From: a virus
Length of the DNA stretch: 64,000 nt
IMG/VR virus record: IMGVR_UViG_3300045918_000131
Coordinates: 1 to 64,000 of that record
Strand: one strand, 5' to 3'
The translations under genes were made by a program, and so were the position numbers. Below are positions 1 through 51,702 of the stretch, one piece after another (position 1 is the stretch's first letter; every line of letters starts with the position of its first letter). The notes beneath the pieces were generated by a model. That model saw only the letters and a list, made by a program, of their open reading frames with translations. It did not search any database and was not told the origin of the DNA.

Positions 1-378
1 TGTAACAATGGTGTTTGTTGCATTCTGCGACGGCAAATTGTAATAATTACTAAAAGTGTTTAAATCGGTAACTATTTGAGCAAATGTAGACGACCCAGGT
101 GCATCAACAATTGCAATTACTTGCCCCGCGCCTGTTAACGATGCCGGCATATTATAGTGTTTTGTTACATCCAACGGACTAAGAGTATTGCCTCTGCCGG
201 TACCAACCTTTGCAAAGGATGTCATCATTGGTTCGGCATCAGCAGCGGGCGCGACTGTTGGTGCTGCTAAAGGAATACTATTTGGATTTGCGGCCGTGCT
301 GGTTGTTCCGCCGCCACCGCCACATCCACCAAAGACCAATGCGATTGCTGCGACTAATATAAGATTACGAGTTTTCAT
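1..378 (-). CDS. S53 (sedolisin-like) lipoprotein peptidase, 5' part only
   Basis: The gene starts at ATG 378 behind a GGAGG ribosome site (386-390) and runs off the left edge, so about 126 residues are visible. Residues 1-20 are a lipoprotein signal with a lipobox-like GGCGGGG. After a short linker comes a match to the start of the S53 catalytic domain: LSPLDVTKHYNMPASLTGAG followed by QVIAIVDAPGS. The large propeptide of most S53 enzymes is absent. The catalytic Ser-Glu-Asp residues lie outside the window. The family comprises secreted endopeptidases, so an envelope-attached or exported protease is expected. It is preceded by a c-di-GMP riboswitch and a late promoter. Family call fairly sure; role inferred. 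Confidence 0.75.
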   Translation of the reverse strand, partial: MKTRNLILVAAIALVFGGCGGGGGTTSTAANPNSIPLAAPTVAPAADAEPMMTSFAKVGTGRGNTLSPLDVTKHYNMPASLTGAGQVIAIVDAPGSSTFAQIVTDLNTFSNYYNLPSQNATNTIVT

Positions 379-382
379 TTTA

Positions 383-411
383 TTACCTCCATTAAGTTTA
401 AATAAAGGTAA
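383..411 (-). promoter_or_regulatory. Shine-Dalgarno-sequestering stem (riboswitch expression platform)
   Basis: In the transcript UUACCU (from 411-406) is perfectly complementary to AGGUAA (from 388-383), which contains most of the ribosome site of the peptidase gene. Folding would hide the SD. It sits between the c-di-GMP aptamer and the start codon, as expected for translational control. Inferred by hand pairing only. Confidence 0.5.
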
Positions 412-440
412 AAATGGGTAACGATCAAAACAGTTGAACT

Positions 441-525
441 TCCTGATTTGCAGCTGGCTGGCATGACTTGCGTCGTAGCCCCTCTAGCATTGCGTCACCG
501 ATTTTCACCGGTTTTGCCAAAATTA
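441..525 (-). promoter_or_regulatory. c-di-GMP-I (GEMM-I) riboswitch aptamer
   Basis: Reading the minus strand: GGCAAAACC (518-510), a short CCG/CGG stem capped by a GAAA loop (506-503), the hallmark GACGCAA (496-490), then a second stem (about 484-455) closed by GCAA and flanked by CUAC...CAUGCC, a tetraloop-receptor-like element, and finally AGCCAGCUGC. Order and spacing match the GEMM-I consensus (GGCAAACC, GAAA loop, GACGCAAAGC, receptor, GGYAGC-like 3' side). I could not fold or score it, and the closing P1 helix is not obvious. It lies in the 5' UTR of the S53 lipoprotein. Confidence 0.75.
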
Positions 526-540
526 CATTTGCTTCATTTG

Positions 541-549
541 TATTTATCC
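541..549 (-). promoter_or_regulatory. late promoter box GGATAAATA
   Basis: GGATAAATA on the minus strand ends about 20 nt before the riboswitch core. The same box or TATAAATA precedes most virion genes here and resembles the T4 late promoter TATAAATA. It would give a late transcript that begins just upstream of the aptamer. Confidence 0.5.
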
Positions 550-677: not shown

Positions 678-935
678 CTAACCCCATCTTAATACAAATA
701 ACATAGCATCTTTGTTGTTTTTAAAGATAAACTCCCAGTTTTGACTCTTAACCGAATCAACGCAGTTATCTTCTAGCCATCCTTGTATAGAGAGGCAATC
801 GGCTGCATTTTTGATAGGCTTAATCTTAATCCTAGTCCACCCAGACGTAACCATATAATCTGAGAAAATGCTCCAATCAATGGTTGCACTTATCTTTTCT
901 GATAAAGCATTAGTTATGTCTTCTTCTAAACCCAT
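678..935 (-). CDS. array member 1, small protein of WC/DA-LF-W family
   Basis: 85 aa, the promoter-distal end of the array. It has the helix GWLEDN in place of WC and ends NNKDAMLFVLRWG. Start ATG 935 follows GGAC at about 10 nt. The stop is TAG. It is followed by 300 nt holding the promoter and riboswitch of the peptidase gene. Function unknown. Confidence 0.75.
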   Translation of the reverse strand: MGLEEDITNALSEKISATIDWSIFSDYMVTSGWTRIKIKPIKNAADCLSIQGWLEDNCVDSVKSQNWEFIFKNNKDAMLFVLRWG

Positions 936-967
936 TATATCACATGTCCATTTTAACTAGCTGTAGT

Positions 968-1369
968 TTACGCATATTTCAATAATAACATCATAGCATC
1001 TTCTTCACTATTAGTTGCAACAAAAAGCTCGTCTGTCCCGAATTCCGTGAAATGAAATCTATGATCATGTTGATTCCATTCTCCTCGAAATATATTATAA
1101 TAACAATGGTTACCTAATGGTCTTTTTGGCCACATATAACTTAAGAAATCTGCATTAGGACACAACCCCCATATATCTGCTTCTGTGAATACTTTTGCGT
1201 AATCCGTCGTGAAAACAAACTTATACCCATAAAAATAATTATTAGCATCGCCTGCATTCTGTACTATATTTCGGTCTTTCCAATATACATAATCGCGATC
1301 TGCTTTTGGTAATCCCGTTTTCCAAGTTAAATACTTGTCTTCAACAATATCTAATATAGTTATGAGCAT
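968..1369 (-). CDS. array member 2, longest copy
   Basis: 133 aa from ATG 1369. A GTG at 1381 in the same frame is less likely. It is about twice the usual length, with an extra aromatic middle segment (YFYGYKFVFTTDYAKV), and ends EEDAMMLLLKYA with the terminal Trp replaced by Tyr. It overlaps member 3 by 10 nt. Function unknown. Confidence 0.7.
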   Translation of the reverse strand: MLITILDIVEDKYLTWKTGLPKADRDYVYWKDRNIVQNAGDANNYFYGYKFVFTTDYAKVFTEADIWGLCPNADFLSYMWPKRPLGNHCYYNIFRGEWNQHDHRFHFTEFGTDELFVATNSEEDAMMLLLKYA

Positions 1370-1608
1370 AATAGAAACCACATTAGATCTTCTTCTGTGT
1401 CAAACTCTATAGATGGGCCGTATGCATCATTATATGCAGTATGTTGATCTTTTACCATCTTCGCATTAAACGTATGAAGATAAGGTTGAGACATTTCCAT
1501 AATGCCCCTCCCGTTAGATATAGCTATCCATTCTCTTTGCCATTTAAGGAATAGAGAACGCCAGACTCTTGTATGTACCTTATTACCGGGTATTATTTTT
1601 ATAGCCAT
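1360..1608 (-). CDS. array member 3
   Basis: 82 aa. The ATG (1608) lies inside the AAATGG that encodes the terminal Lys-Trp of member 4, an arrangement repeated at several junctions. The C-terminus EEDLMWFLLCS keeps the acidic/hydrophobic motif but has lost the basic-Trp ending. Function unknown. Confidence 0.7.
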   Translation of the reverse strand: MAIKIIPGNKVHTRVWRSLFLKWQREWIAISNGRGIMEMSQPYLHTFNAKMVKDQHTAYNDAYGPSIEFDTEEDLMWFLLCS

Positions 1609-1895
1609 TTCAAACTTACCAATGTACCAACCATATCTTCTAATAACGGACGATAGACTACGTTAGGGTCATTTGTCTCAACATCCACTTTATTTCCGTC
1701 TGGTGCTGTATGTATCGTATGCCAACCATGTTTTGGCCACTTTACATGTATCTTATAACCAGGTATTAAATACCAAAATATTTGCGATACGATGCTTATA
1801 TTTTTCAAATACGAGTTCTTTTCATACCTGGCTACTTCAGCACAATGGTTAAGCATAAATTTAATTTGCTTATTATTAATAATATCTTCTATCAT
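1599..1895 (-). CDS. array member 4
   Basis: 98 aa from ATG 1895, which overlaps the stop of member 5 as ATGA and follows AGGTGG, the Arg-Trp codons of member 5. It has HCAEVARY in the helix position and ends VSLKWL. The DA motif is degenerate. Function unknown. Confidence 0.7.
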   Translation of the reverse strand: MIEDIINNKQIKFMLNHCAEVARYEKNSYLKNISIVSQIFWYLIPGYKIHVKWPKHGWHTIHTAPDGNKVDVETNDPNVVYRPLLEDMVGTLVSLKWL

Positions 1896-2098
1896 GTCCA
1901 CCTCAATGTAAATATTAGCGCATCGCACTCATTCTGAAACCACCAAACAGTATCGTTGGTTGCTGCTCTAAAAGTGAATTTGTGAATAGAATCAAAGTCA
2001 ACGCACCATTCTCTTATTTCAGTAATGTTACATTTGTCAATTGCTACTCGTGTCCACGAAGTGCCGGAATTATCCCACCAATCATCATAGAACAACAT
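1892..2098 (-). CDS. array member 5
   Basis: 68 aa from ATG 2098, which shares a base with the TAA of member 6 (TAATG). The ribosome site is AGGTGG within the Leu-Arg-Trp codons of member 6. Contains IREWCVDF and ends ECDALIFTLRWT. Function unknown. Confidence 0.78.
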   Translation of the reverse strand: MLFYDDWWDNSGTSWTRVAIDKCNITEIREWCVDFDSIHKFTFRAATNDTVWWFQNECDALIFTLRWT

Positions 2099-2292
2099 TA
2101 TGACCACCTCAATGCAAATAACATAGCATCTTTCTTGTACTTAAACTCATAAGTAACTCCATCCTCGCTAACTTTTCCGGAACATCTAAACCATGTATTA
2201 CTATAAAAGTCAACGCCAAAATGAGTTATGCACCATAAAAATCGTTCTTGTCCGTTGTTAGGTAAAAAAGGAACGACTATCTTGTATCTCAT
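2098..2292 (-). CDS. array member 6
   Basis: 64 aa from ATG 2292 (ATGA overlap with member 7). Contains RFLWCITHFG and ends KKDAMLFALRWS, close to the family consensus. Function unknown. Confidence 0.8.
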   Translation of the reverse strand: MRYKIVVPFLPNNGQERFLWCITHFGVDFYSNTWFRCSGKVSEDGVTYEFKYKKDAMLFALRWS

Positions 2293-2489
2293 ACTACCCA
2301 CTTTATCTTAAACCACATTGCATCCTTAGCATCTCTAAATGTATATGTTTGATAACCAAACATCTCTGTTACAGACCAACGTTCACAATCCTTAATAGTA
2401 TAATTATATTCTCCGAATTGTTCACCGCACCACTTCCGAATCTCGGTTTGTAATTGATAAGAATCACGGCCTAACATTATTGTTATCAT
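2289..2489 (-). CDS. array member 7
   Basis: 66 aa. ATG 2489 or ATG 2477 could be the start, and no strong ribosome site is seen for either. Contains IRKWCGEQFG and ends AKDAMWFKIKWVV. It is separated from the next unit upstream by the membrane protein. Function unknown. Confidence 0.75.
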   Translation of the reverse strand: MITIMLGRDSYQLQTEIRKWCGEQFGEYNYTIKDCERWSVTEMFGYQTYTFRDAKDAMWFKIKWVV

Positions 2490-2501
2490 TAGCGTCGTCG
2501 A

Positions 2502-2678
2502 CTAATAAATTAATATGTAATACATAGATATTACAGCTAATATTAATATAATTATTAGTATTGGTACATACTCAACAGCTAGGTAAACTTCTTGTTTTTT
2601 GCAACGCAACGTTGAATCTAAATCAGGTTTTAATCTCTTCATATATTTTTTGTCTCCTGTGCTGCTATATTTACCCAT
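2502..2678 (-). CDS. small single-span membrane protein inside the array
   Basis: 58 aa from ATG 2678, which lies in the CGATGG of the decayed member 8. A start at ATG 2642 behind AGGAGAC would give 46 aa. The basic N-terminal half contains no family motif. Residues about 36-58 form a hydrophobic Ile/Leu-rich membrane segment. Not related to the array family. Function unknown. Confidence 0.55.
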   Translation of the reverse strand: MGKYSSTGDKKYMKRLKPDLDSTLRCKKQEVYLAVEYVPILIIILILAVISMYYILIY

Positions 2679-2868
2679 CGAAGTGTAAACCACATGGCGT
2701 CTTTTTCGGACTTAGAACAGTAAGTCATATACTCATGACTTCTAAAAAATAACAATTTTTTGATTGTAAATATCCGTTATTCGATAGCCATTGATTAATA
2801 GTTGATATTTCGTTCTGTATTAAAACTGTAAATTGTACTGGTCAAATTTTCTTATTTAATATTCTCAT
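2639..2868 (-). pseudogene. array member 8, interrupted (in-frame TGA and minus-1 shift)
   Basis: From ATG 2868 the frame hits TGA at codon 9, then continues through INQWLSNNG, and stops at TGA before the C-terminal motif. The motif SEKDAMWFTLRW lies in the minus-1 frame. At 2749-2743 there is TTTTTTA in the phase T TTT TTA, the classic minus-1 slippery heptamer. Decay is the simplest reading because of the early TGA. See the frameshift finding. Confidence 0.65.
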
Positions 2869-2873
2869 AGTTA

Positions 2874-3065
2874 TTAACCTCCCCATTTCAAAATAAATAC
2901 CACTTCGTCTTTCTCGTCGTAAAATGAAAAAGATCTAAACGGAAGCAGGTTCACGCCTACCCATTCTGTGTAATTACCATATCCAATATTATCTATTAAC
3001 CATTGATCTATAGATTCACCTGTCTGAGTCAACCTCTCATTACTAATACGTATTTTTCTAATCAT
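2874..3065 (-). CDS. array member 9
   Basis: 63 aa from ATG 3065. Contains IDQWLIDNIG (WL in place of WC), then a variable region with WVGVN, and ends EKDEVVFILKWGG. No clear ribosome site. It probably relies on coupling to member 10, which ends 10 nt upstream. Function unknown. Confidence 0.72.
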   Translation of the reverse strand: MIRKIRISNERLTQTGESIDQWLIDNIGYGNYTEWVGVNLLPFRSFSFYDEKDEVVFILKWGG

Positions 3066-3074
3066 ATAATAACA

Positions 3075-3233
3075 CTATGACCATTTTAATGCAAATAGTA
3101 CAGCATCTTTCTCGTCAACAAAAGAAAAGATACTATTGAAGTCAAATCCATTATCAACACGTTTACGGTCGATAGTATACTTGTATTCAAGGCCTATTCT
3201 ATTATTAGGATGTTGTATAGTATATGCGTTCAT
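3075..3233 (-). CDS. array member 10, short copy
   Basis: 52 aa, ATG 3233 to TAG 3075. It lacks the WC helix (the N-terminus is only MNAYTIQHPNN) but keeps FSFVDEKDAVLFALKWS. It may be a truncated but still coding copy. Function unknown. Confidence 0.6.
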   Translation of the reverse strand: MNAYTIQHPNNRIGLEYKYTIDRKRVDNGFDFNSIFSFVDEKDAVLFALKWS

Positions 3234-3239
3234 TGGTTT

Positions 3240-3455
3240 TTAACTATATTTTAGAATGAATAGTAAATAATCGTTGTTTGTTCTAAATTCAAATTCAACA
3301 CGTATAGCTGTATAGTCGGATGTATATAACGTTAATACGTAATTCCCGGGGTAAGTTAAATATACATAGTTGGCGATAGCTTGTTCGGTTTCGGAATCAT
3401 ATATTTCAAACCCCCATATTTCTGCTATTTCGGCTTCGATTCTTTTTAGGACCAT
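3240..3455 (-). CDS. array member 11
   Basis: 71 aa. ATG 3455 is inside the AAATGG (Lys-Trp) of member 12. The WC position is degenerate (IAEIWGFE). Ends NNDYLLFILKYS. Function unknown. Confidence 0.72.
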   Translation of the reverse strand: MVLKRIEAEIAEIWGFEIYDSETEQAIANYVYLTYPGNYVLTLYTSDYTAIRVEFEFRTNNDYLLFILKYS

Positions 3456-3643
3456 TTTATCAAAAACATTAGAGCGTCAGTGTTATTACGAAAAAAGAAG
3501 TATCCTCTACTATTAAATCCCCATCTGTTATCCTGGAAAGTATGTTCGCAGTAATTCATCAAGTCTGATAATCCATGCTTAAATACGTTATATTTTCTAG
3601 GTGTTATTTCTATCCACCCATAAGGAGTTGTTTCTAAATACAT
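3446..3643 (-). CDS. array member 12
   Basis: 65 aa from ATG 3643, 1 nt after the stop of member 13. Contains LMNYCEHTF at the helix position and ends NNTDALMFLIKWS. Function unknown. Confidence 0.75.
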   Translation of the reverse strand: MYLETTPYGWIEITPRKYNVFKHGLSDLMNYCEHTFQDNRWGFNSRGYFFFRNNTDALMFLIKWS

Positions 3644-3644
3644 A

Positions 3645-3857
3645 TTAAGCCCATTTTAATAGGAACATTAACGCATCCGACGAGTTCACAAACCCGTATG
3701 GTACCATGCTATCAACAGCGTTTCCTCGAATCCATTGAATACCACATACTCCAACATATTCTTCGCACCAAAGATATCTTTCTGCTCCTTTTGATATACT
3801 AATGCCAAGCAACGGTACCTTAACCCAGATCCAATTATTTTTGGTATCTACGTCCAT
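3645..3857 (-). CDS. array member 13
   Basis: 70 aa. ATG 3857 lies in the AAATGG of member 14. Contains RYLWCEEYVG and ends SSDALMFLLKWA, a good match to the consensus. Function unknown. Confidence 0.78.
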   Translation of the reverse strand: MDVDTKNNWIWVKVPLLGISISKGAERYLWCEEYVGVCGIQWIRGNAVDSMVPYGFVNSSDALMFLLKWA

Positions 3858-4063
3858 TTTAATGTAAAGAATACCGTATCTTCCTCTCGTTTAAACCAAA
3901 AGTATATATTTTGTCCTATTGTCCAGTCTCGTCCTATATACCATAGCTTAGAGTCATTGTTGTCATCATCCATGTACATAGACATAGGACCTATGTGTTG
4001 CTCGCACCAATCTATTGCTTGTTGCAGTTCATCAAACATTAAATTAACAGGCACTCTTGACAT
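3848..4063 (-). CDS. array member 14
   Basis: 71 aa from ATG 4063. Contains AIDWCEQHIG, an acidic insert DDDNND, and ends EEDTVFFTLKWT. Starts 4 nt after the minus-1-frame stop of member 15, which suggests that the longer product of member 15 is (or was) the real one. Function unknown. Confidence 0.78.
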   Translation of the reverse strand: MSRVPVNLMFDELQQAIDWCEQHIGPMSMYMDDDNNDSKLWYIGRDWTIGQNIYFWFKREEDTVFFTLKWT

Positions 4064-4067
4064 ATAA

Positions 4068-4276
4068 TTAACGCCATTTTAAACAAAACAACATCATATC
4101 GTCCTCTCTTTTAAAAAAGAAAATTTTCCATTTTGATACCAACGCATATCAGTCCACTTACAATTTTTATCGCGTTTCTTACCTTGGAATGGTGCTCCAA
4201 ACGTTTCAACACACCACGCATAATATGAGGCAGTCAATTCGCATGTATCTGCTAATTTAACCTTATGATAGTTCAC
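4068..4276 (-). CDS. array member 15, possible minus-1 frameshift product
   Basis: GTG 4276 forms a GTGA overlap with member 16 behind AGGTGG. The zero frame contains YAWCVETFG and stops at 4094 without the C-terminal motif. At 4118-4112 the heptamer T TTT TTA is in zero-frame phase, and the minus-1 frame after it reads FFKREDDMMLFCLKWR and stops at 4068, at the usual family length. It is either a programmed minus-1 frameshift (same heptamer as HIV-1 gag-pol) or a one-base loss in a T-run. Confidence 0.55.
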
Positions 4277-4488
4277 AACCACCTCAATGTGAATAACATT
4301 GCATCTTTTTCGTCAAGAAAGATAAATTCAGGTTGACTAAAAGTAACTGTTGAGTACCAACGTATTGACGTTTCAGTAGTAATAGATGTTTTAGACAGAC
4401 TAGGTCCAAATTGTGTCACACACCAAGCATATATCTCGTCATACTTAACGTAGTGAGATTTAGATAGTAATATAATAGTATTACTCAT
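4273..4488 (-). CDS. array member 16
   Basis: 71 aa from ATG 4488. The GGAG inside the Trp-Ser codons of member 17 serves as ribosome site. Contains IYAWCVTQFG and ends DEKDAMLFTLRWL. Function unknown. Confidence 0.78.
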   Translation of the reverse strand: MSNTIILLSKSHYVKYDEIYAWCVTQFGPSLSKTSITTETSIRWYSTVTFSQPEFIFLDEKDAMLFTLRWL

Positions 4489-4489
4489 A

Positions 4490-4690
4490 CTAACTCCACT
4501 TTAATGCAAATAATACAGCATCTCGTTCATCTTCAAACATAAAGCCTCCACCGCAGGCATAACAATACCCATCAGTACCGTTATTTGCACACCATTGTTC
4601 TAATAGGTTAATATAATATATACTAACCCATGTAACGTTAATCATTACCCATTTAGATGTATATAACACGCTGGTTTTAATAACTTTCAT
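4490..4690 (-). CDS. array member 17
   Basis: 66 aa. ATG 4690 follows AAGTGGAGT of member 18. Contains LEQWCANNG, a Cys-rich YCYACGGG, and ends ERDAVLFALKWS. Function unknown. Confidence 0.78.
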   Translation of the reverse strand: MKVIKTSVLYTSKWVMINVTWVSIYYINLLEQWCANNGTDGYCYACGGGFMFEDERDAVLFALKWS

Positions 4691-4696
4691 CTTACG

Positions 4697-4878
4697 TTAA
4701 CTCCACTTCAATGCAAAAAACACTGCATCTTTTTAAATCGAAATCGATAATGGCCACGAAGCGGATATTTAACAGTCTTCCATACAATTCCATATTTACC
4801 AATATTCTCACGGCACCAGGTACTTATTTCTAGTGCTAACACTGAGTTACAATTATTAACGCAGATTTTATGTTTCAT
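4697..4878 (-). pseudogene. array member 18, frameshifted
   Basis: ATG 4878 opens a 56-codon frame with ISTWCRENIG and RFRFKK that stops at 4708. The expected ending (DAVFFALKWS, stop 4697) is in the minus-1 frame after an A-run in TTTAAAAAG. The run is not a canonical slippery heptamer, so a one-base deletion is likelier here than recoding. Confidence 0.6.
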
Positions 4879-4879
4879 A

Positions 4880-5080
4880 CTAACTCCACTTTAATGCAAA
4901 TAATACAGCATCTCGTTCATGTATAAAGCAGTAATTTATACAACCATTCTGGTATTGAGTAATTTTCCAACGATAATTATACAGCCCTAAATTCTCATTG
5001 CACCATTTTGATATTTCTAACTTTAGATGGAACTGTTTAATGTAAACAATTGAGACTTTATAGTCGTATGTTACAGCCAT
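4880..5080 (-). CDS. array member 19 (promoter-proximal)
   Basis: 66 aa. ATG 5080 overlaps the stop of the RNase H gene (TAATG). Contains ISKWCNENLG and YCFIHERDAVLFALKWS, the family consensus. It is the first array gene of the operon. Function unknown. Confidence 0.78.
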   Translation of the reverse strand: MAVTYDYKVSIVYIKQFHLKLEISKWCNENLGLYNYRWKITQYQNGCINYCFIHERDAVLFALKWS

Positions 5081-5679
5081 TAAATTGATCGCACAAACGG
5101 TAGATATGTATGAATAGTTTGTTCTAAGCTTTCATCCCAAACACTGTACCCTGATTTAATCCAATCCCAAAAAGATACTGGCTTTTTGTTAGCCGTAGCA
5201 CTACGAGCTAAGTAGTCTGCACGATTGTTGTTAGTATCTAAACAATGACCTTTAACCCAATGTAATTGTGCATACATCATCCAACGTACTATACGCATTA
5301 CAGCAAAGTTGTCATTTGGACAAAATCGTTGCCGAAAACCGCGTAATCTTTTCAGAATTGCTTTTTTCTTAGGGCTACAATGTGAAGGAACTAAATCAAA
5401 ACCGCTATATGCAATCCAAGCATCGTCTGTATAAATACTTACTTCTTTTGGGATTAATTCTTGCTGTTCTGCGTAAGTAATCGCATTGTAAAACGCAAGC
5501 AACTCGTAATATCCGCGCTGATCGTATGTAGTGTCTATTGCTCCGTGTATTTCTTTTGTGTTTCCATTAGTATGATATGCTACTATACCCCAGCCTTGCG
5601 ACACAGTACAATATTCTGTTCTTTTATGTATACCCTTGGTAACTTCAGAACCGTCGCAATATATAGTTAGTTTAGACAT
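5080..5679 (-). CDS. rnhA: ribonuclease HI
   Basis: 199 aa. Cleaves RNA in RNA:DNA hybrids, for example primers or R-loops during phage replication. The catalytic set is visible: Asp in IYCDGS (residues 7-12), Glu in YYELLAFYNAI (about 57), Asp in IYTDDAW (about 84), and HWVKGH...NNRADYLAR (about 140-156) with the last Asp. It is longer than E. coli RNase HI (155 aa) because of an insertion before the last motif and a C-terminal tail. AGAGGA precedes ATG 5679. It is the first gene of the operon that runs into the small-gene array. Confidence 0.88.
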   Translation of the reverse strand: MSKLTIYCDGSEVTKGIHKRTEYCTVSQGWGIVAYHTNGNTKEIHGAIDTTYDQRGYYELLAFYNAITYAEQQELIPKEVSIYTDDAWIAYSGFDLVPSHCSPKKKAILKRLRGFRQRFCPNDNFAVMRIVRWMMYAQLHWVKGHCLDTNNNRADYLARSATANKKPVSFWDWIKSGYSVWDESLEQTIHTYLPFVRSI

Positions 5680-5784
5680 ATATTATCCTCTTAACGTAAG
5701 TTATTATGTTCTAAGTATTTCTTAAAATTAGCGCATATCTTTCACTAACTGTAATACGCTCATTTGTAATTATTTAATACAGCT

Positions 5785-5812
5785 ATTATACACTAATTAA
5801 TCAAAAAGTCAA
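5785..5812 (-). promoter_or_regulatory. sigma70-type promoter of the RNase H / array operon
   Basis: TTGACT (5812-5807), 16-nt spacer, TATAAT (5790-5785). The surrounding bases (AAGATC upstream, AGCTNTATTAAATA downstream) match the promoters at 33.4, 34.1 and 34.8 kb, so the phage reuses one promoter cassette. It should read the whole 5-kb array. Confidence 0.8.
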
Positions 5813-5817
5813 GATCT

Positions 5818-6207
5818 TTAATCAAAAGGTTTCACGGGTACACCATTCAAATACCAATACTTTGATCCATCTGCATCTTCAATGGCAGGACCATCTTCCC
5901 TATGCCGTTTACCATTCAAATACCAATACTTTGATCCATCTGCATCTTCAATGGCAGGACCATCTTCCCTATGACATTTATCATTCAAATACCAATGTTT
6001 TGATCCATCTGCATGTTCAATGGCAGGACCATCTTCCCTATGCCGTTTACCATTCAAATACCAATGTTTTGATCCATCTGCATATTCAATGGCAGGACCA
6101 TCTTCCCTATGCCGTTTACCATTCAAATACCATTCTTTTGATCCATCTGCATCTGTGGTAATAGTATAACGAAGTAAATCCCACATTAGTTGTTCTTCAG
6201 TATTCAT
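5818..6207 (-). CDS. MORN-like tandem repeat protein
   Basis: 129 aa. Residues about 21-129 are four and a half near-identical 23-aa units of the type DGSKHWYLNGKRHREDGPA plus IE(Y/H/D)A, encoded by 69-bp direct repeats. Such W-Y-x-N-G repeats resemble MORN-type or YwqK-like beta-hairpin repeats and serve as binding surfaces. The first 14 residues (NTEEQLMWDLLRY) resemble the C-terminal motif of the small-gene array. Copy number is likely to vary by slippage. Partner unknown. Confidence 0.75.
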   Translation of the reverse strand: MNTEEQLMWDLLRYTITTDADGSKEWYLNGKRHREDGPAIEYADGSKHWYLNGKRHREDGPAIEHADGSKHWYLNDKCHREDGPAIEDADGSKYWYLNGKRHREDGPAIEDADGSKYWYLNGVPVKPFD

Positions 6208-6264
6208 CTTCTGATTTGCCGTAATTATTCTAAAAAGTCAAGTAGTTCACACAAAAAAACGAGT

Positions 6265-6543
6265 CTAATGATACATTGTTTTACGTTTTTTTAATCGATT
6301 AGATACTGCTGTGATATCAGCAAGTTGCTCGTATGGTAAACTCTTTTTTGATGTCGAAGTAATTACCTTGACTAATAGATCTTCTGCAAATTCAAGGATT
6401 TCTCCGCAGTAATAACATACGGTAATATCGAAAGGTTCAGGGCTTATATCTTCGCCAGATATACTGCTAGCTGCATTTAACTTGCTATTACATGTTGGAC
6501 ACGTTGATTCTAAAAGATGTGACACCTTGTTATTATTAAGCAT
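6265..6543 (-). CDS. small zinc-ribbon protein
   Basis: 92 aa. CPTCNSKL (about 15-22) and CYYCGEIL (about 43-50) form a two-knuckle zinc ribbon, followed by a helical basic tail. GGAG at 9 nt precedes ATG 6543. Lies just downstream of the AAA+ ATPase in the same direction. A nucleic-acid or protein adaptor role is possible; function unknown. Confidence 0.65.
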   Translation of the reverse strand: MLNNNKVSHLLESTCPTCNSKLNAASSISGEDISPEPFDITVCYYCGEILEFAEDLLVKVITSTSKKSLPYEQLADITAVSNRLKKRKTMYH

Positions 6544-7829: not shown

Positions 7830-9728
7830 TTACTTAACTTCAGAAAACTCTGCGTCAACTACTGTTCCAGCATCTTTAGGTGCATCTGTTGGAGCCTCTT
7901 GTGCCTTAGCCTGTTCAGCTGCATACATTTTTTCTCCCAACTTTTGTGCTGCTGTAGCAAGTGCTTCGGTTTTTGCAACAATATCATCCTTAACATCGCT
8001 AGTTACTACTGTTTCTGCATCTTTCATAGCAGTTTCAATAGCTTCCTTTTCGCTAATATCTAACTGACTTCCGTACTCTTCTAATGATTTCTTAGTAGAG
8101 TGGATTAAACCATCTAGATTGTTACGAGCCATAATAAGTTCGATTGCTTTCTTATCTTCTTCAGCGTTAGCTTCTGCATCCTGAACCATACGATTAATAT
8201 CTTCCTCAGATAAACCGCTATTAGCTTTAATAGTAATCTTATTTTCTTTACCAGTAGCTTTATCTTTAGCACTAACTTTTAAAATACCGCTTGCGTCAAT
8301 ATCTAAAGTAATTTCAATTTGTGGTACGCCTCTACGTGCAGGAGCAATACCCTCGAGATTAAATTGACCAAGCACTTTATTATGTTTTGCTAATTCGCGT
8401 TCCCCTTGACATACAATAACTGATACAGCTGGTTGATTATCATCGGCTGTACTAAACACCTGTGTTGCTTTAGTTGGGATAGTAGTATTTTTCTTAATGA
8501 GTTTAGTCATCACACCACCCATCGTTTCAATACCGAACGATAAAGGAACAACGTCAAGTAACAATACATCTGTAACATCTCCCTGTAATACACCACCCTG
8601 GATAGCTGCGCCTGCTGCAACTGCTTCGTCTGGGTTGACGTCTTTACGCGGTTCCTTACCGAAATATTCTTCTAATTTCTTTTGAACTAACGGAATACGT
8701 GTAGAACCACCTACTAATAAAACTTCGTCAATGTCTGTTACAGACAAACCTGCATCTTTTACTGATACTTTACAACAATCAATAACTTTATTAATCAAGT
8801 GTTCAACAAGAGATTCAAATTTTGAACGTGTAATCTTTATTGCGAGATGTTTAGGCCCAGATGCATCAGCTGTAACATACGGAATATTAATCTCTGTTTG
8901 TTGTGTAGAAGAAAGTTCAATTTTAGCCTTCTCTGACGTCTCTTTAATACGCTGCATTGCAAGAGGATCTTTACTTAAATCAATACCACTTTCTTTCTTA
9001 AATTCTGAGATTACATAGTCCATTAACGCATGATCGATATCTTCCCCGCCCAAGAAGACGTTGCCATGTGTTGACAACACCTCAAATTGCGATTCTCCAT
9101 CAATGTAACTAATATCAATTATTGATAAATCCGTCGTCCCCCCGCCGAAATCCGCGACGGCGATCTTACGATCCTTTTTATCTTTTGAATCAACGCCAAA
9201 TACCATTGCGGCGGCTGTAGGCTCATTTATGATTCGTTTTACTTCAAGTCCTGCAATTTTACCAGCAGCTTTTGTAGCTTCTCGTTGATCATTATCAAAA
9301 TACGCCGGTACTGTGATTACTGCTTCGGTAACAGCGTACCCTAAGTAATCTTCGGCTGTTTTTTTCATCTTACTTAGCACTTGTGCAGAAATTTCTTGTG
9401 GAGACAAATCTTTACCATTTGCTCTTACCCAGGCATCTCCATTGGTGCTTTTATAAATCTCGTAAGGGACGATTTCTGCTGTATGTTTTGTTTCTGCACT
9501 ATCGTAACGTTGACCCATTAAACGCTTAACAGCGTAAATTGTATTTTTGGGGTTAGTTACTGCTTGACGTTTAGCGGAAGCACCAACTAAAGTTTCTTCT
9601 CCGTAAGCAACGATACTAGGTGTGGTTCTAGCTCCTTCTGAGTTTTCAATAATCTTGTATTTACCGTTTTCCATAACAGCAACACACGAATTCACCGTTC
9701 CTAAGTCAATTCCAATAATTTTAGACAT
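7830..9728 (-). CDS. dnaK: Hsp70 chaperone DnaK
   Basis: 632 aa from ATG 9728 (AGGAGA upstream). This is a complete bacterial-type DnaK: ATPase start [26 protein letters not shown], the linker [18 protein letters not shown], substrate domain and helical lid, ending [10 protein letters not shown], close to the bacterial EEVK tail. It folds client proteins by ATP-driven binding with DnaJ and GrpE, neither of which is seen here, so host co-chaperones must serve. A full DnaK is unusual in a phage. The leader folds into a hairpin shared with the hsp20 gene. Confidence 0.95.
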
Positions 9729-9793
9729 AATATTTCTCCTTTTAATAAGCAAGTTTTAAAATATAGTAATCCGACCATCGGCATTACTATATG
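9729..9793 (-). promoter_or_regulatory. ROSE-like RNA thermometer leader of dnaK
   Basis: The transcript has a 14-bp hairpin (9792-9761; CCGA-UGG-UCGG apex, one bulged G) followed by UUGCUU (9752-9747), which can pair with the SD AAGGAG (9741-9736) leaving a G-G mismatch. UYGCU paired to the SD with G opposite G is the ROSE thermometer signature. Two other leaders in the window share it. Confidence 0.6.
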
Positions 9794-30617: not shown

Positions 30618-31007
30618 GTGGAGAGTTTTATACAACCAGTACTACTGAAAAAACTAACACCTATCAGAGATAAAGTTATTGTATCTGAAATGAGGTTCAA
30701 AGAACGTTATACCAAGAGTGGTATTTTTATTCCTTCAGACGACATGCAGATTCACGGCGTACACCCTAGGTGGGGTAAGGTTTATGCAGTTGGCCCCGAA
30801 CAAACCGACGTTAAAGTTGGACAGTGGGTATTAGTATCTCATGGAAGATGGACAAGAGGTGTTGAAGTTACAGATGCCAACGGAGAGCATACAATACGTA
30901 TGGTTGATAATAACGATATTCTTCTAGTATCAGACGAAGAAATGGTTGACGAAAATATGGGTATTCCGTTGACACAGGAACAACAAAATGGGGCACCTAG
31001 ATATTAA
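30618..31007 (+). CDS. GroES-like co-chaperonin (gp31 type)
   Basis: 129 aa from GTG 30618 (AAAGGAG). LTPIRDKVIVSEM and the KSGIFIPSDD mobile-loop region followed by WGKVYAVGPEQTDVKVGQWV and NDILLVSDE follow the GroES fold. Phage gp31-type proteins replace host GroES so that GroEL can fold the major capsid protein. It belongs to the phage proteostasis set with DnaK, Hsp20 and ClpS. Confidence 0.85.
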   Translation: MESFIQPVLLKKLTPIRDKVIVSEMRFKERYTKSGIFIPSDDMQIHGVHPRWGKVYAVGPEQTDVKVGQWVLVSHGRWTRGVEVTDANGEHTIRMVDNNDILLVSDEEMVDENMGIPLTQEQQNGAPRY

Positions 31008-35196: not shown

Positions 35197-35355
35197 ATGA
35201 ATATCATAGGACGTATATTATTTGTATTGCTTACTTGGCCTGCAGTAGCGTTTATTGATGTTCCAAATATAGGATGGAGCCTATTTCTAATAGAGATGTT
35301 AGATTTCGTTAGATATGGCGACAAAGAGCTTCCGGAAGAATTTCTGGATAAATAA
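35197..35355 (+). CDS. 52-aa membrane protein
   Basis: ATG 35197 with GGAG at 7 nt. Hydrophobic residues 3-35 (IIGRILFVLLTWPAVAFIDV), soluble acidic tail ending ELPEEFLDK. The late box of the receiver gene lies in its last codons. Function unknown. Confidence 0.55.
   Translation: MNIIGRILFVLLTWPAVAFIDVPNIGWSLFLIEMLDFVRYGDKELPEEFLDK
35346..35354 (+). promoter_or_regulatory. late promoter box GGATAAATA
   Basis: 24 nt before the receiver-domain gene start, overlapping the end of the preceding gene. Confidence 0.5.
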
Positions 35356-35377
35356 CTATATTAAATGGGTTAAAATT

Positions 35378-35764
35378 ATGCTAAAGGTATTAGTAATCGA
35401 TGACGACAACGCAATATGCTTAATGGTTAGAACTGCATTTTCAGACGAAGATAACTATACTGTCATCGAAGCAAACACGGCTGCACAGGGTCTATTAGAC
35501 ATAATTAAATATGTACCAGATGTCATTATACTTGATGTTCATTTACACGATTGTATTACAGGCATAGACATTCTTAATGCAATAGAGCAGAACAAGACAC
35601 TAAATCACATACATATATTCACAGTTACCTCGTCCGAATATGAATTAGTGTCAAAATCTATTACTTTGGGTGCAGATGATTACTTTATCAAGCCATTTAA
35701 TATCAAAGATCTAGTGTCTGCTGTAAAACGCAAATTTAATCCTAAGTTATTAGATCGAGCATAA
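35378..35764 (+). CDS. stand-alone response-regulator receiver (CheY-like)
   Basis: 128 aa from ATG 35378. MLKVLVIDDDNAICLMV supplies the acidic pair, VIILDVHLHD the phospho-acceptor Asp (about residue 53), TVTSSEY the Thr/Ser switch and YFIKPFN the Lys. All CheY active-site residues are present and there is no output domain. It could be phosphorylated by host histidine kinases and alter signalling or motility (inference). A T4-like late box precedes it. Confidence 0.85.
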   Translation: MLKVLVIDDDNAICLMVRTAFSDEDNYTVIEANTAAQGLLDIIKYVPDVIILDVHLHDCITGIDILNAIEQNKTLNHIHIFTVTSSEYELVSKSITLGADDYFIKPFNIKDLVSAVKRKFNPKLLDRA

Positions 35765-42909: not shown

Positions 42910-44037
42910 TTACAGTGAGCAAGCGCCGCTTGAACAGCCTCGGTCATCTGAGTTATTGTTCTCTATTAGTCCATTTTGACTAATAGTTGCATCTTCGTCT
43001 GCTGATAAGTCTACTCCATTACTAGTAAGACTATTTACATAATACCTCGATTTCATTCCATATTTAACCATTGTTAAATAATCTTGTATCATGTCTGTAC
43101 TAGATACTTTTTGATCTCCTTGTATCTTTACAAATAAGTCAGCACTAATTGCTTGATCGCACCATTTCTGAAAAATAGAATATACTTTAATCATATCATT
43201 AGTGCTAATATCCCATGCTAATTGATACTTATTTTTTAACTTAGTACCGTCCGGCGCGGACCAATGGTTTACTCCGGTATCATTGGTTTTCATTAAATTA
43301 AATTCTCTAATAGGATAGGACCCATTGGTAGTTCCGCTTGAAATGGTCGATGACTCCCCCGGAGCATTTGCCACTATCACTGAATTACGTATGCCGCCAT
43401 TGGCAATTATCTCTTTACGTAACATATCCCAATCACGCTTACATTCGACTGTAACTAATTCATCTACACGTTGTTCATAAGTATCCAATGGTAACCATCC
43501 TTCAGGCCATCTAGTTTTATGCATCCAGGGCGCATTGCCAAGTTCTTTACCTAAGCGAAGACTTGCATTTAATACATGCCAGTAATGCGTTTCTGCTAAT
43601 TCGTGTATAAAATTTCGTCCTTCAATAGTATTATATTTTTTATCTTTCTTTGCCATTAAATGTGCTAAACCTAATATACCAACACCAGCACTTAATCTTG
43701 ACTTTGCTGTATGCTCTAAGTTAGGAAACACATAATCAGACTTATGTATACATTTATCTATCATTTTTAATGCATAATATGCTACTTCTGCATATTGCTC
43801 ATCTGACTCAATATTACCTACAACTATTCCCGCAAGACTACATAACCCGATTTCGCCGTCTCCTTCTTCATAATATTGTTTATATAATTCGGCAACGCTA
43901 GAATACCCTTTGGAAATTAGGGCTATCTCCTGACAGTTATGCACTAATACATCATTAGCGAAAAACGATTCTGTTTCTGGCACAGTAATATCATATACTG
44001 GCGTTGGATCTACTTTAATCTTTCTAATCTTAATCAT
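42910..44037 (-). CDS. nrdA: NrdA C-terminal half with split-intein C-fragment
   Basis: 375 aa. Residues 1-34 are an intein C-fragment: block F VYDITVPETESFFANDVLV and block G HN, followed by Cys +1. The C-extein begins CQEIALISKGY, carries GEIGLCSLAG (redox Cys) and ends CSSGACSL with the tail Cys pair used for re-reduction. ATG 44037 has its own AGGAAG site. Ligation to the upstream half would restore NrdA. Confidence 0.9.
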   Translation of the reverse strand: MIKIRKIKVDPTPVYDITVPETESFFANDVLVHNCQEIALISKGYSSVAELYKQYYEEGDGEIGLCSLAGIVVGNIESDEQYAEVAYYALKMIDKCIHKSDYVFPNLEHTAKSRLSAGVGILGLAHLMAKKDKKYNTIEGRNFIHELAETHYWHVLNASLRLGKELGNAPWMHKTRWPEGWLPLDTYEQRVDELVTVECKRDWDMLRKEIIANGGIRNSVIVANAPGESSTISSGTTNGSYPIREFNLMKTNDTGVNHWSAPDGTKLKNKYQLAWDISTNDMIKVYSIFQKWCDQAISADLFVKIQGDQKVSSTDMIQDYLTMVKYGMKSRYYVNSLTSNGVDLSADEDATISQNGLIENNNSDDRGCSSGACSL

Positions 44038-44114
44038 ATGGTTCTTCCTGGGTAATACCCGTCTGGTGATTGTTGTGATGCTTTAACTTTAATATTTTTT
44101 CGTTTGTAAACCAT
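44034..44114 (-). CDS. 26-aa ORF between the nrdA halves
   Basis: ATG 44114 to TGA 44034, overlapping the ATG of the intein C-fragment as ATGA. MVYKRKNIKVKASQQSPDGY then YPGRTI. No ribosome site is visible. It may couple translation of the C-half, or be a leftover of a lost homing-endonuclease insert. Coding status uncertain. Confidence 0.3.
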   Translation of the reverse strand: MVYKRKNIKVKASQQSPDGYYPGRTI

Positions 44115-44141
44115 TTATGTGAGTAGCGCAATTTCTTTACA

Positions 44142-45740
44142 TTAAGTTTCGAGTAATTCGTCACGTTCGGTTAAATCTTTTGCGGGTACAAATCCTCGAT
44201 TTTTAGTATAAATCATATGGTCGGCGGTGCATCTTATTATCTTACCGTTAGGACTTTCAATCTCATATAAATCTGTCGAAACCCCTGTTTGCGCTGCGGC
44301 TGATACTTTACTCCATACTACCTCTTCGCCGTTAAATGATTTAACATAAACTTCCGTATAATATCCTAACTCATACTTGGCAATAAAGTCGTCTAATCTG
44401 ACTATTTCGGCAAAATTTCCGGCGTTGTTAGACGCAATTTCAATGTTAGTATTGCCAGTCAAACAGAGATTCGACGAATAAATCTTTTCTTTAAAAGGAG
44501 TATGTTTATTCATCGTATCAAACTGATGTAAGTAATGTACTCCGGTTTCGTAACTTTGTGTTAATGCACCTAATAATAATTCACGAGCATTAACTTTAAC
44601 CTTTACTTTATCTGAATTTGCGTAAAGTGTATATAATTCTTCAAATTTATTAGGGTCTTTATTATATTGTGCTTCGTATAACTCCGGCACATCCCCGTAC
44701 GAAAATAAGTAAATATCTTCATTCTTAGCTACTTTACGTGCAAAAAATTTATTACTACCAAAACTATAATGACATCCTCCTATTTTTTTATTAAGCGGAG
44801 TCATCGGGTGTCTCAATTTTTGTATCACTTCGACTTCGGGGTCAAATGCAGTGTAATGTACTGTGCTCGCGCCCCCACGCCCATTTTGTAAATTAGCTTG
44901 TATTGCACCTACCATTGCTCTATAGTATGGCAACTTACCTTGATGTTGAATAATTCCGTTACGAATCGAGTCACCTAGAGATCTAGTCTTAATATGAGTT
45001 CCTATACCAGCACTCATACATGTCATCATATATGCAATATGATCTCCGGCCGCCAAACTGGCAGCTGAATCCTGTGTAGTATAAACACAACATGAAGCAT
45101 AACCGTTTAACTGTGTACCTAAATTAACAAAATTTGGTGTTGGACAGTTAATCCTATTGAAACTAAAATGATCATACCATGCTTTTACATGTACTAAACG
45201 TTCTGCTGATGGCTCATCTTCTGCTAACGCCATAGCCATACGCATGTATACAAATTGAGGAGATTCATACTCTTTACCTGTTACTTTGTTGCGTAATGCA
45301 TACTTATAACGAATTTGATTTAATTGATAATGAGGATATTTTAAATCTCGTTTGTGGTCTATAATTTTTTCTATTGCTGTATATTCGTCAGTTGAATAAT
45401 GCATGTCTACCATTAAACCAGCAGTCTGTAATTCTTCATGTAAACTTTGTACTGATGGTCTACCATATGGATAAATTACACGTTCAAGTAAGTAAGTATA
45501 TAACCTACCTGCCATTCTATTATACTCCCAGGTTTTTCTACTTAAACAAGTACTAATTAAGGTCTCTTGTAATTGTTGACTAGTACAAGTTTCAGGACAT
45601 TGTACTACTGCATCTATTACTATGATAGACCAATCTACCTGTGATCCTAATGTTTTTGCAGCCCATGTTCCCCAACCATTTACTTTTGATGGAGAAAAAT
45701 CTTCAACTCTCCCGTCGCGTTTTACGATCTTTTTTATCAT
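44142..45740 (-). CDS. nrdA: NrdA N-terminal half with split-intein N-fragment
   Basis: 532 aa. Residues 1-425 are class I RNR large subunit: ATP-cone start KKIVKRDGRVEDFSPSKVNG, NGYASCCVY (redox Cys), GIGTHIKTRSLG. At IYSSNL the intein begins: CLTGNTNIEI (block A), then CTADHMIYT (block B with T-x-x-H), ending at LLET. The 107-aa intein N-fragment precedes the stop. The junction SNL/CQEI is directly before the radical cysteine (E. coli C439). Confidence 0.92.
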   Translation of the reverse strand: MIKKIVKRDGRVEDFSPSKVNGWGTWAAKTLGSQVDWSIIVIDAVVQCPETCTSQQLQETLISTCLSRKTWEYNRMAGRLYTYLLERVIYPYGRPSVQSLHEELQTAGLMVDMHYSTDEYTAIEKIIDHKRDLKYPHYQLNQIRYKYALRNKVTGKEYESPQFVYMRMAMALAEDEPSAERLVHVKAWYDHFSFNRINCPTPNFVNLGTQLNGYASCCVYTTQDSAASLAAGDHIAYMMTCMSAGIGTHIKTRSLGDSIRNGIIQHQGKLPYYRAMVGAIQANLQNGRGGASTVHYTAFDPEVEVIQKLRHPMTPLNKKIGGCHYSFGSNKFFARKVAKNEDIYLFSYGDVPELYEAQYNKDPNKFEELYTLYANSDKVKVKVNARELLLGALTQSYETGVHYLHQFDTMNKHTPFKEKIYSSNLCLTGNTNIEIASNNAGNFAEIVRLDDFIAKYELGYYTEVYVKSFNGEEVVWSKVSAAAQTGVSTDLYEIESPNGKIIRCTADHMIYTKNRGFVPAKDLTERDELLET

Positions 45741-48312: not shown

Positions 48313-48732
48313 TTAATGCTGTCTTTTCTTCAATGCTCTTTTACCCATATTGTTTACAGTCTCTTCTGGGCTCAGGGGTGGGAATTGATTAGTAGCTTGA
48401 TCTGTAGTTTTACTCTCAACATCACTACTGCCTGCTTTTCCGGGGTCTGAAGATAATGTCACTTCATCCTCATTATAATTAGCAATCAATTCTTTGACTA
48501 CCTCATTATTTTCATAAGCTGTACATAGAGTAGAGTAATCAAATGTATTATCGCCTGCATTTTGCACCATTTGAATTAAACTTTTAGTATGAATTTTGGG
48601 TGTCAACTCTTTTTCTTCGCTTCTCTTTTTAAGAAACATCAACACAGGTAACAGATTTACACTTAAAGAATTCTCATCTGATAACTGTTCAGAAGCACTA
48701 ACGTCTTCACTGATAATATCTTTTATTTTCAT
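48313..48732 (-). CDS. head-associated protein with capsid-targeting start
   Basis: 139 aa beginning MKIKDIISED, identical at DNA level over about 30 nt with the start of the next gene upstream. The I-S-E would be a prohead-protease site. The remainder is acidic and low complexity, ending NNMGKRALKKRQH, similar to the end of the 157-aa gene (GGMAKHALNNRK), so the two are paralogues. Start overlaps the upstream stop (ATGA). Confidence 0.6.
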   Translation of the reverse strand: MKIKDIISEDVSASEQLSDENSLSVNLLPVLMFLKKRSEEKELTPKIHTKSLIQMVQNAGDNTFDYSTLCTAYENNEVVKELIANYNEDEVTLSSDPGKAGSSDVESKTTDQATNQFPPLSPEETVNNMGKRALKKRQH

Positions 48733-49202
48733 TTTCGGTTATTTAATGCGTGTTTAGCCATACCACCAACAGTTCTGACTGTATTTTCTTCGGCTTTTTG
48801 TTGTTGTTTTTCAGGGTCTTCGTTCTTTGCTGTTAATAACCCATCAGTCTTAAACTTAACTTTCTTTAAATCTATAGTATCGATATAATGTTGAATTTTA
48901 GGCGAAGCATTATTTATCTTAACTAGGTCAATATGTGTGAACGGAATCTTTAACTTTGATACTACAGAGTTAATAATAACAGGGGTTTCAATTTCGGTAA
49001 TGGTTTGTGCAATAAGTTTTCTAACGATATTAACGATAGCTTGTTCAACCCTAGGATCTACTTTAGTAGCTGTAGCAACTTCGAGGTCTTCATCTTCAAA
49101 TTCGTTCGTTTCTGGTTCAAGATCTAAAGTATTGGAATCCGGCATTGCAAGATCAAATTCTCTTCTATGCATGTCTTCACTGATAATATCTTTTATTTTC
49201 AT
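48729..49202 (-). CDS. head-associated protein with capsid-targeting start, paralogue
   Basis: 157 aa from ATG 49202 (GAGGGA). Starts MKIKDIISED and ends TVGGMAKHALNNRK. The middle contains a helical VEQAIVNIVRKLIAQTITEI. By position (near the scaffold-like gene) and N-terminus it is probably a prohead core or internal head protein. Confidence 0.6.
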   Translation of the reverse strand: MKIKDIISEDMHRREFDLAMPDSNTLDLEPETNEFEDEDLEVATATKVDPRVEQAIVNIVRKLIAQTITEIETPVIINSVVSKLKIPFTHIDLVKINNASPKIQHYIDTIDLKKVKFKTDGLLTAKNEDPEKQQQKAEENTVRTVGGMAKHALNNRK

Positions 49203-49253
49203 ACTTATTTCCCTCAACTTATTAATTGGTATTTCTATTATTGATGCTATAAC

Positions 49254-49964
49254 TTAACGTCTTTCGCGTCCTACTGGAGCACCCATGGATGGATCTTCTG
49301 ATGTTGCCATATCCGCCGATGGTTCTTCTGCGGTTGCTACATCTCCGTCGGTTGCTATATCCGCAGTTTGTGCATCTCCTGGCATACCCATTGGAGCAGT
49401 CTCTCCTTCGCCCGACAGTGTGCGTGTTGAATTATCTAGTTGATCACGTGCTTGACTTAATTGTTGCAATAGTGTGCCTAATAACTGTCCCACTGAGATC
49501 TTGAATGTGTCGCCCTCAACAGCGCCGATTTGATCTCTGATAGAGTCGATTAACGCTGGTAATTGCTCATTTTGCATTTTACCTACTTTTTCTATCATAT
49601 CCTGAACTGAATCTACCATATCTTTAGCGGCTAACATTACTTCTGCTTGTCCTAGTTCGCCCTCATATATCTTACGTCTTTGCTCTTGTAATTTACGCGA
49701 TTCTTGTAATTTGTAAGCGTCAACCCAACGAGATAAACCTTCGTATACTATTAACATCTCAAGATACTGTGGATCTTGTTCAGCTGTATGTACAGCACTT
49801 GATTTGCGTATTGAATTAACTGTTTCCATAATTTTACCACGCATCGTTTCTGCTTTGCGTAAAGTAATATTATTGTAATTGATTGAGAACCCAAATCTAG
49901 ACTCGATAACTTTGTTAAGTTGCTTTGCTGTAGGGGTTTTTGGGATAAATTGATCTAGTTTCAT
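49254..49964 (-). CDS. prohead core / structural protein candidate
   Basis: 236 aa. MKLDQFIPKTPTAKQLNKVI start, a long helical region with GQAEVMLAAKDMVDSVQDMI and LPALIDSIRDQIG, and an acidic Ala/Thr/Asp-rich tail. This resembles structural head proteins of T4-like cyanophages and pelagic phages that I recall as prohead-core-associated. Confidence 0.6.
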   Translation of the reverse strand: MKLDQFIPKTPTAKQLNKVIESRFGFSINYNNITLRKAETMRGKIMETVNSIRKSSAVHTAEQDPQYLEMLIVYEGLSRWVDAYKLQESRKLQEQRRKIYEGELGQAEVMLAAKDMVDSVQDMIEKVGKMQNEQLPALIDSIRDQIGAVEGDTFKISVGQLLGTLLQQLSQARDQLDNSTRTLSGEGETAPMGMPGDAQTADIATDGDVATAEEPSADMATSEDPSMGAPVGRERR

Positions 49965-50031
49965 GTTCTTCTTTCCTTAAATATGCATATATGTTATTTA
50001 GTCAAAGTTAAAAAAATTGTAAATTTCTTAG

Positions 50032-50535
50032 TCACTTGATGATAACATACTTTTTAACAATTTCTAAATAACTTAATAGTTCTCGCCTATATAGTTTCAA
50101 ACTATCACTACATGTAGAATAACGACTACTATATAGACTTATTTTAAACTCGTCGTTGTTTATATGTGCATTGTCTAACCTTGCCCTATATAACAACTTG
50201 TCTAAATCTAATTTACTAACTATTCTATCTAATTTAAGTAATGTTTCTGCTTCGATTATTTTATTTAGATGTAATAACGCACAATAAAATATTGCACTAC
50301 GTTTTTCTGTAAAGTCATTATTATTAACATACCAACAGTGATCTGATATCTTTTCTATTAGATAGGTTGCAACTAAAAAATTACCGTTACTTAAAGCAAT
50401 ACATATTGGATATTGACTATTCTTCTGTAGGTCAGATATTTCTTGCCGAGTCCAAGATTTTACTCTAGTGAACCCATATGATTCTATTCTATCCATCGTT
50501 TTAGATGGTTTACCTAATTTTTTTCGTGTATTCAA
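50032..50535 (-). CDS. unknown protein, 167 aa
   Basis: TTG 50535 behind AGGG is taken as start. ATG 50496 is the alternative. Contains YPICIALSNGNFLVATYLIE and a helical basic C-terminus. Overlaps the 70-aa gene by 26 nt in another frame. No family recognised. Confidence 0.5.
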   Translation of the reverse strand: MNTRKKLGKPSKTMDRIESYGFTRVKSWTRQEISDLQKNSQYPICIALSNGNFLVATYLIEKISDHCWYVNNNDFTEKRSAIFYCALLHLNKIIEAETLLKLDRIVSKLDLDKLLYRARLDNAHINNDEFKISLYSSRYSTCSDSLKLYRRELLSYLEIVKKYVIIK

Positions 50536-50722
50536 TTTTACCCTGCGAATTCTTTTTTCTTTTTAACACGGATTTACTTACTAGTTGATTTGCTATAATC
50601 TGTTCTCGTTCGTCAAATTTTGATTTCAGTATTACCTGTGTATCATCGAACTTTTTCAGTAGCTCTGATTCCTCATTATTGATCATTATGTTAATTTTAG
50701 TTAATAATTCTACTATTTTCAT
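50510..50722 (-). CDS. 70-aa helical protein
   Basis: MKIVELLTKINIMINNEESE, then FDEREQIIANQLVSKSVLKR and a basic end. Resembles small conserved proteins of T4-like phages that carry a DEREQ-x(4)-LVS motif. Function unknown. Confidence 0.55.
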   Translation of the reverse strand: MKIVELLTKINIMINNEESELLKKFDDTQVILKSKFDEREQIIANQLVSKSVLKRKKNSQGKIEYTKKIR

Positions 50723-50731
50723 TTTTTGTTC

Positions 50732-51163: not shown

Positions 51164-51214
51164 ATTATGAAAATCCTATTAATAGTATTTATTGTCAAAA
51201 ATTTTAGTCAAAAT

Positions 51215-51242
51215 AAAACCCTAATTTTTCAACTAGGGTTTT
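51215..51242 (-). terminator. intrinsic terminator after the 112-aa late gene
   Basis: 9-bp stem AAAACCCTA / TAGGGTTTT with a 10-nt loop followed by ATTTT on the minus strand. Confidence 0.75.
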
Positions 51243-51267
51243 ATAGATCTTCTACGTTATGGTGATA

Positions 51268-51606: not shown

Positions 51607-51648
51607 TTTTTTCTCCTAATTAAATTGTAGTTAAAAACTACATACACT

Positions 51649-51656
51649 TATTTATA
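51649..51656 (-). promoter_or_regulatory. late promoter box TATAAATA with 5' hairpin
   Basis: Exact late box on the minus strand. The predicted leader then forms TGTAGTT / AACTACA (51642-51626) close to its 5' end, before the ribosome site. Confidence 0.55.
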
Positions 51657-51702
51657 CCGATTGGCATTTAATTAAGTACTATGTTAATTATTACCAAAAT
51701 TA

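Follow-up and report, generated by a model that had tools for sequence, protein, structure and literature searches.

A c-di-GMP-I riboswitch, predicted to act as a translational OFF switch, before an S53-like lipoprotein gene on a jumbo-phage contig that also carries a putative c-di-GMP enzyme

The 64,000-nucleotide stretch analysed here (the window) belongs to a 94,248-base IMG/VR virus fragment, a jumbo-phage contig of 94 kb. Near position 1, on the minus strand, lie in order of transcription a T4-late-type box (548-541), a c-di-GMP-I (GEMM-I) aptamer (528-446), a hairpin over the translation start (416-376) and an ORF (378-1) that is open at the contig end, while a gene for a putative PAS-PAS-GGDEF-EAL c-di-GMP enzyme (52374-54587, minus strand) lies elsewhere in the window. 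The phage origin assumed in the preliminary description was supported by a UvsW-like helicase, a clamp loader and the T4-type late box on the contig. The helicase was closest to those of jumbo phages (Phosso, 51%; the PA5oct group, 49%; Escherichia jumbo phages, 48%). The clamp loader agreed with this affinity, as did other phage families on the contig; searching with tail proteins brought up no phage that was more closely related.

Scanning the window with cmscan against all 4227 Rfam families, we obtained RF01051 at 528-446 (minus strand) as the sole match over the cut-off, with 56.6 bits against a curated cut-off of 35 bits, an E value of 2.1e-8 and complete coverage of model positions 1-87; it was recovered again when the entire record was scanned. 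The preliminary description had proposed a GEMM-I riboswitch at this site and named a significant RF01051 match as its check, and both this match and the ordered landmarks listed there (GGCAAAACC, the GAAA loop, GACGCAA, a receptor-like P3 and AGCCAGCUGC) were found within 528-446. Judged by sequence and spacing, the ligand contacts G20, A47 and C92 of Vc2 (PMC4744006) correspond to G518, A491 and C450, and the interhelical C44/G83 pair to C494/G458, the residues having been mapped with the literature numbering (PMC4744006). The GAAA tetraloop and the P3 receptor were also kept in the covariance-model alignment. Since cGAMP-selective GEMM-Ib aptamers are marked by A at position 20, and position 20 is here G (518), which we take to confer specificity for c-di-GMP rather than cGAMP, cGAMP was rejected as the ligand. 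The conventional P1 is weak, with about three A-U pairs; P1 is essential in Vc2, yet was undetected in Cd1 (PMC9262584). The plain MFE z-score of the region was also weak (−1.07), the covariance model being the proper test as it scores sequence and structure jointly. A decayed or chance look-alike that has lost ligand binding is a very remote prospect: the bit score is lower than that of most over-cut-off phage members (51-83 bits) and P1 is poor, but the match spans the complete model (E 2e-8) and none of the contact bases has been lost. We regard it as near certain that the contig carries a c-di-GMP-I sensor, with c-di-GMP as its predicted ligand. Two other leads were discarded, namely an Rfam mir-15 match at 227-282, below its cut-off and meaningless, and a loose pattern search, which gave mostly chance matches, with a proper P2 stem in about 20 of 119 stretches.

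The first 126 aa of the controlled ORF comprise a signal peptide with a lipobox-like FGGC, a linker and the start of an S53-like catalytic domain. The product matched the first ~35 residues of mature kumamolisin (E 0.006), and with a profile built from six aligned gammaproteobacterial pro-kumamolisin-type proteins it ranked first (20.5 bits, E 2e-5) in a set of about 2,300 sequences, 2000 of which were shuffled versions of the product itself; Pfam and NCBIfam did not recognize the fragment. It shares with kumamolisin and other S53 peptidases the start of the mature catalytic domain and, unlike them, is a lipoprotein without a long pro-domain, whose Glu-Asp-Ser catalytic residues would fall beyond the contig end at position 1. 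Thus, of the S53 lipoprotein peptidase gene originally described, the S53-like start was supported by the profile, while the ORF proved incomplete, being cut at position 1, and its product is likely a member of the S53 (sedolisin) family and a putative peptidase. Neither a longer version of the lipoprotein nor a relative was found when viral contigs, bacterial genomes, phages and plasmids were searched. Weak matches in gammaproteobacterial genomes were rejected as signal-peptide or low-complexity similarity, and one RecQ-like match as chance.

Upstream of the leader, the box GATAAATA at 548-541 (minus strand) ends ~13 nt before the modelled aptamer. Among all heptamers, ATAAATA was the most enriched 12-60 nt upstream of the gene calls on the contig (our own simple calls), with 20 of 55 copies in this pre-gene zone against a base rate of 4.3% (p 5e-14), which agrees with the T4-like late box noted earlier beside the leader. 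Boxes of the late type also precede tail-type or tail-fibre-like genes at 21879, 23672 and 28193. The TATAAATA-like T4-type late box is positioned before genes, and when one mismatch was allowed TATAAATA was enriched in this position only and not window-wide. These results support the prediction that GATAAATA at 548-541 is a T4-type late promoter. In addition, a sigma-70-like promoter (TTGACA-17-TATTAT, 11 of 12 matches) precedes the leader at 643-615 (minus strand), and 13 such sites were counted on the contig versus 3-8 in shuffles, which is suggestive of a host-type promoter that may add earlier transcription, so that expression need not be late only.

The position of the feature, within 550 nt of the contig end, and the GC content of the ORF, an outlier at 45.5% compared with 34.6 ± 3.2% for the window, could be explained if the first few hundred bases were host DNA fused to the phage contig by misassembly. 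We consider such a chimera improbable: the GATAAATA box stands 13 nt upstream of the aptamer, the leader GC (34.4%) equals that of the phage, and a phage small-gene array directly precedes the leader.

Within the leader, the aptamer strand 509-493 (GGUGAAAAUCGGUGACG; minus strand), which takes in the loop and 3′ half of P2 and the conserved GACG, is complementary to the downstream strand 423-407 (CGUUACCCAUUUUUACC; minus strand) at 16 of 17 positions. The ungapped duplex scored 31, compared with 16.8 ± 2.7 for shuffled leaders, and one as good occurred in 2 of 5000 dinucleotide shuffles and in none of the 846 other 67-mers of the window; the contrast was weaker for gapped duplex energy, which 48 of 2000 shuffles equalled. 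None of the other phage aptamers in the comparison reached this complementarity score, and strong competing strands were likewise present in the phage records L150, L018 and L125. By complementarity and folding, 423-407 is common to this anti-aptamer helix and to a hairpin that sequesters the Shine-Dalgarno (SD) sequence, the two structures having nine nucleotides in common. In the MFE structure and in constrained partition functions the latter is a 16-bp hairpin at 416-376 (minus strand) covering both the SD (390-385) and the AUG (378-376). The 6-bp stem hiding the SD in the preliminary description was therefore right as to SD occlusion and too short, as it belongs to this longer hairpin. Searches for homologues of the leader gave none, so there is no covariation to show for the switching helices.

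Constrained partition functions gave a probability of 0.47 that the SD is unpaired with the anti-aptamer helix, and of 0.00 with the aptamer plus hairpin. At transcript lengths of 130-146, the anti-aptamer fold (−36 kcal/mol) was favoured over the unliganded aptamer (−27 kcal/mol) by ~9 kcal/mol, while in the full leader, once the SD had emerged, the two were within 0.3 kcal/mol of each other (−39.2 and −39.5 kcal/mol, respectively). In the ligand-free equilibrium of the full leader, the folding model still favoured the SD hairpin (SD unpaired, 0.02). As this equilibrium leans OFF, expression in the ON state would need co-transcriptional kinetics. No transcription terminator was found in the leader, and a terminator mechanism was thus rejected.

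Because the mutually exclusive helices share 423-407, a translational OFF switch is predicted. When the leader is transcribed and ligand is lacking, 423-407 would invade the aptamer, leaving the SD open for synthesis of the protein; when c-di-GMP holds the aptamer, 423-407 would be available for pairing with the SD and the AUG, and the protein would not be made. The lipoprotein would accordingly appear at low c-di-GMP, with the decision taken during transcription. We consider it probable, with binding and switching predicted from the leader, that the c-di-GMP-I riboswitch is a translational OFF switch for a secreted S53-like phage lipoprotein; this assessment concerns the OFF switch, and any circuit with the GGDEF-EAL enzyme lies outside it. 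The opposite polarity, in which ligand binding raises expression, has precedents among GEMM-I-type aptamers, including the pilM type (PMC9262584) and one C. difficile case (PMC3649979), but is unlikely here: one and the same strand occludes the SD and competes with the aptamer, so that a stable aptamer should favour the hidden SD.

An OFF switch would agree with the known members of the family. Vc2 has been described as a translational OFF switch with kinetic control assumed, a decision during transcription has been modelled from measurements for Cd1 (PMC9262584), and nearly all c-di-GMP-I switches of C. difficile are OFF switches (PMC3649979). The present element resembles Vc2 and Cd1 in family, contact bases and OFF logic, and Vc2 also in acting on translation; it differs from both in residing on a T4-like jumbo phage and in having an aptamer strand directly antisense to the arm that hides the SD.

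The second component of interest, absent from the preliminary description of the riboswitch, is the PAS-PAS-GGDEF-EAL protein encoded at 52374-54587 (minus strand), in which Pfam detected EAL with 234 bits and GGDEF with 136 bits. The EAL catalytic set (E, N, E, DD, K, E, Q) is complete (EALLRW 514, NVSA 575, LEPTES 606, DDFGTG 637, KIDKSF 658, AEGVET 693 and YQGY 713), and the GGDEF signature at residue 382 is intact. Its best match among solved structures was the motility regulator MorA, and another of the nearest, a GGDEF-EAL chain, we take to be RbdA; in NCBIfam the DibA phosphodiesterase came first, with 547 bits, a score under the cut-off for that family. MorA and RbdA, GGDEF-EAL phosphodiesterases of Pseudomonas, have the same domain order and catalytic residues, whereas the present protein is phage-encoded and putative in activity, and the RxxD inhibition site was not seen just before its GGDEF domain. 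The protein probably makes or destroys c-di-GMP. Its gene has a phage-like GC content (31.6%) and a late-type GATAAATA box at 54621-54614 (minus strand), 26 nt upstream of the start. Its closest relatives were proteins of freshwater Methylococcaceae and Methylotenera (47-53%), and none was found in viral contigs. A stand-alone response-regulator receiver domain is also encoded in the window, at 35315-35764 (plus strand).

The same type of box thus precedes both the aptamer and the GGDEF-EAL gene. Less confidently, the phage enzyme might act as a phosphodiesterase that lowers c-di-GMP and so derepresses the lipoprotein late in infection. Together they would form a closed circuit, in which the phage phosphodiesterase resets the host c-di-GMP pool and the phage riboswitch reads this pool to time the secreted protease. 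We put this forward tentatively, as possible rather than probable: enzyme and riboswitch are linked only by a common genome and a common box type, and as the GGDEF domain is also intact the enzyme could make c-di-GMP instead. If the circuit were true, degradation of matrix or envelope would begin only after the phage had pushed its host out of the sessile state.

The circuit, though not the OFF switch, competes with a simpler account, to which we give a little less than an even chance. Gene and riboswitch may have been acquired jointly from a bacterium and would merely follow the c-di-GMP of the host; the switch would be functional, and the phage enzyme would be unrelated to it, serving for example counter-signalling or motility control. 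The GC content of the ORF against that of the phage speaks for such an acquisition. GEMM-I riboswitches often control secreted proteins, and they occur in some of the Methylococcaceae and Methylotenera genomes, those of possible hosts, where several likewise precede secreted or surface proteins. The phage relatives also lacked both riboswitch and GGDEF-EAL protein: among fifty helicase relatives none carried a riboswitch or GGDEF, an absence that is weak evidence as all were fragments. On the other side, the leader has a phage-like GC content and a phage late-type box, and searches of bacteria and phages yielded no homologue that shares this leader.

Host c-di-GMP is known to affect phages, and c-di-GMP riboswitches have been described from a few prophages. 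In C. difficile, Cdi1_4 and Cdi1_5 (phiCD630, PhiCD119-like lysis module) are phage-borne c-di-GMP-I riboswitches as here (PMC3649979, PMC7699646), but they belong to temperate Firmicute phages, act through a transcription terminator, and lie upstream of an RNA antitoxin from a type I toxin-antitoxin pair, with no phage c-di-GMP enzyme reported there. The glutamine riboswitch of methylophage Melnitz likewise belongs to a T4-like phage, one that infects aquatic proteobacteria, and differs in ligand (glutamine) and in gene (tmRNA) (PMC9004378). A survey of jumbo phages treats phosphodiesterases directed against nucleotide signals, with no mention of riboswitches (PMC7824862). Searches of the open-access full-text literature turned up no phage in which a c-di-GMP enzyme and a c-di-GMP riboswitch occur together, and we did not find described a c-di-GMP sensor and a candidate enzyme for the same messenger on one T4-like jumbo phage. 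Such a phage may both read and set one lifestyle switch of its host; if this is true, its enzyme for the messenger and its RNA sensor of that messenger would mean that a virus can run second-messenger signalling of its own.

RF01051 matched 33 virus records (32 and the present one), of which only the present record had a GGDEF domain. In seven of the eight largest riboswitch phage records (at least 76 kb), the product of the following gene begins with a signal peptide or a membrane segment, as judged by eye without a predictor. In L018, L125, L132, L140, L150 and L054 (76-237 kb), c-di-GMP-I riboswitches precede proteins with signal peptides or membrane segments, including CAP-domain, Lcl-like and possibly cell-wall-anchored products, and two of these records have tandem riboswitch copies. 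The riboswitch-controlled gene of L054 (76.6 kb; 5086-6411, minus strand) stays open only when TAG is taken as a sense codon, and its product ends in a sortase-like VPQTGD tail. In several Firmicute-type phage records, L129 (114.8 kb), L057, L136, L139, L141 and L149, the riboswitch precedes small CheY-like response regulators.

Several other features were noticed in the window. An array of ~20 short paralogues with DAxLFxLKW-like motifs at their ends occupies 678-5080 (minus strand). A full-length phage DnaK (929 bits) is encoded at 7830-9752 (minus strand) and a GroES-like gene lies at 30618-31007. The large subunit of ribonucleotide reductase is split into two ORFs (42910-45740, minus strand), whose meeting ends resemble intein (HINT) pieces. 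Finally, many genes from 48313 to 62069 (minus strand), and on to ~73184 of the record, share an MRAxEFIxE-like leader at the N terminus, which looks like a mark for some joint process.
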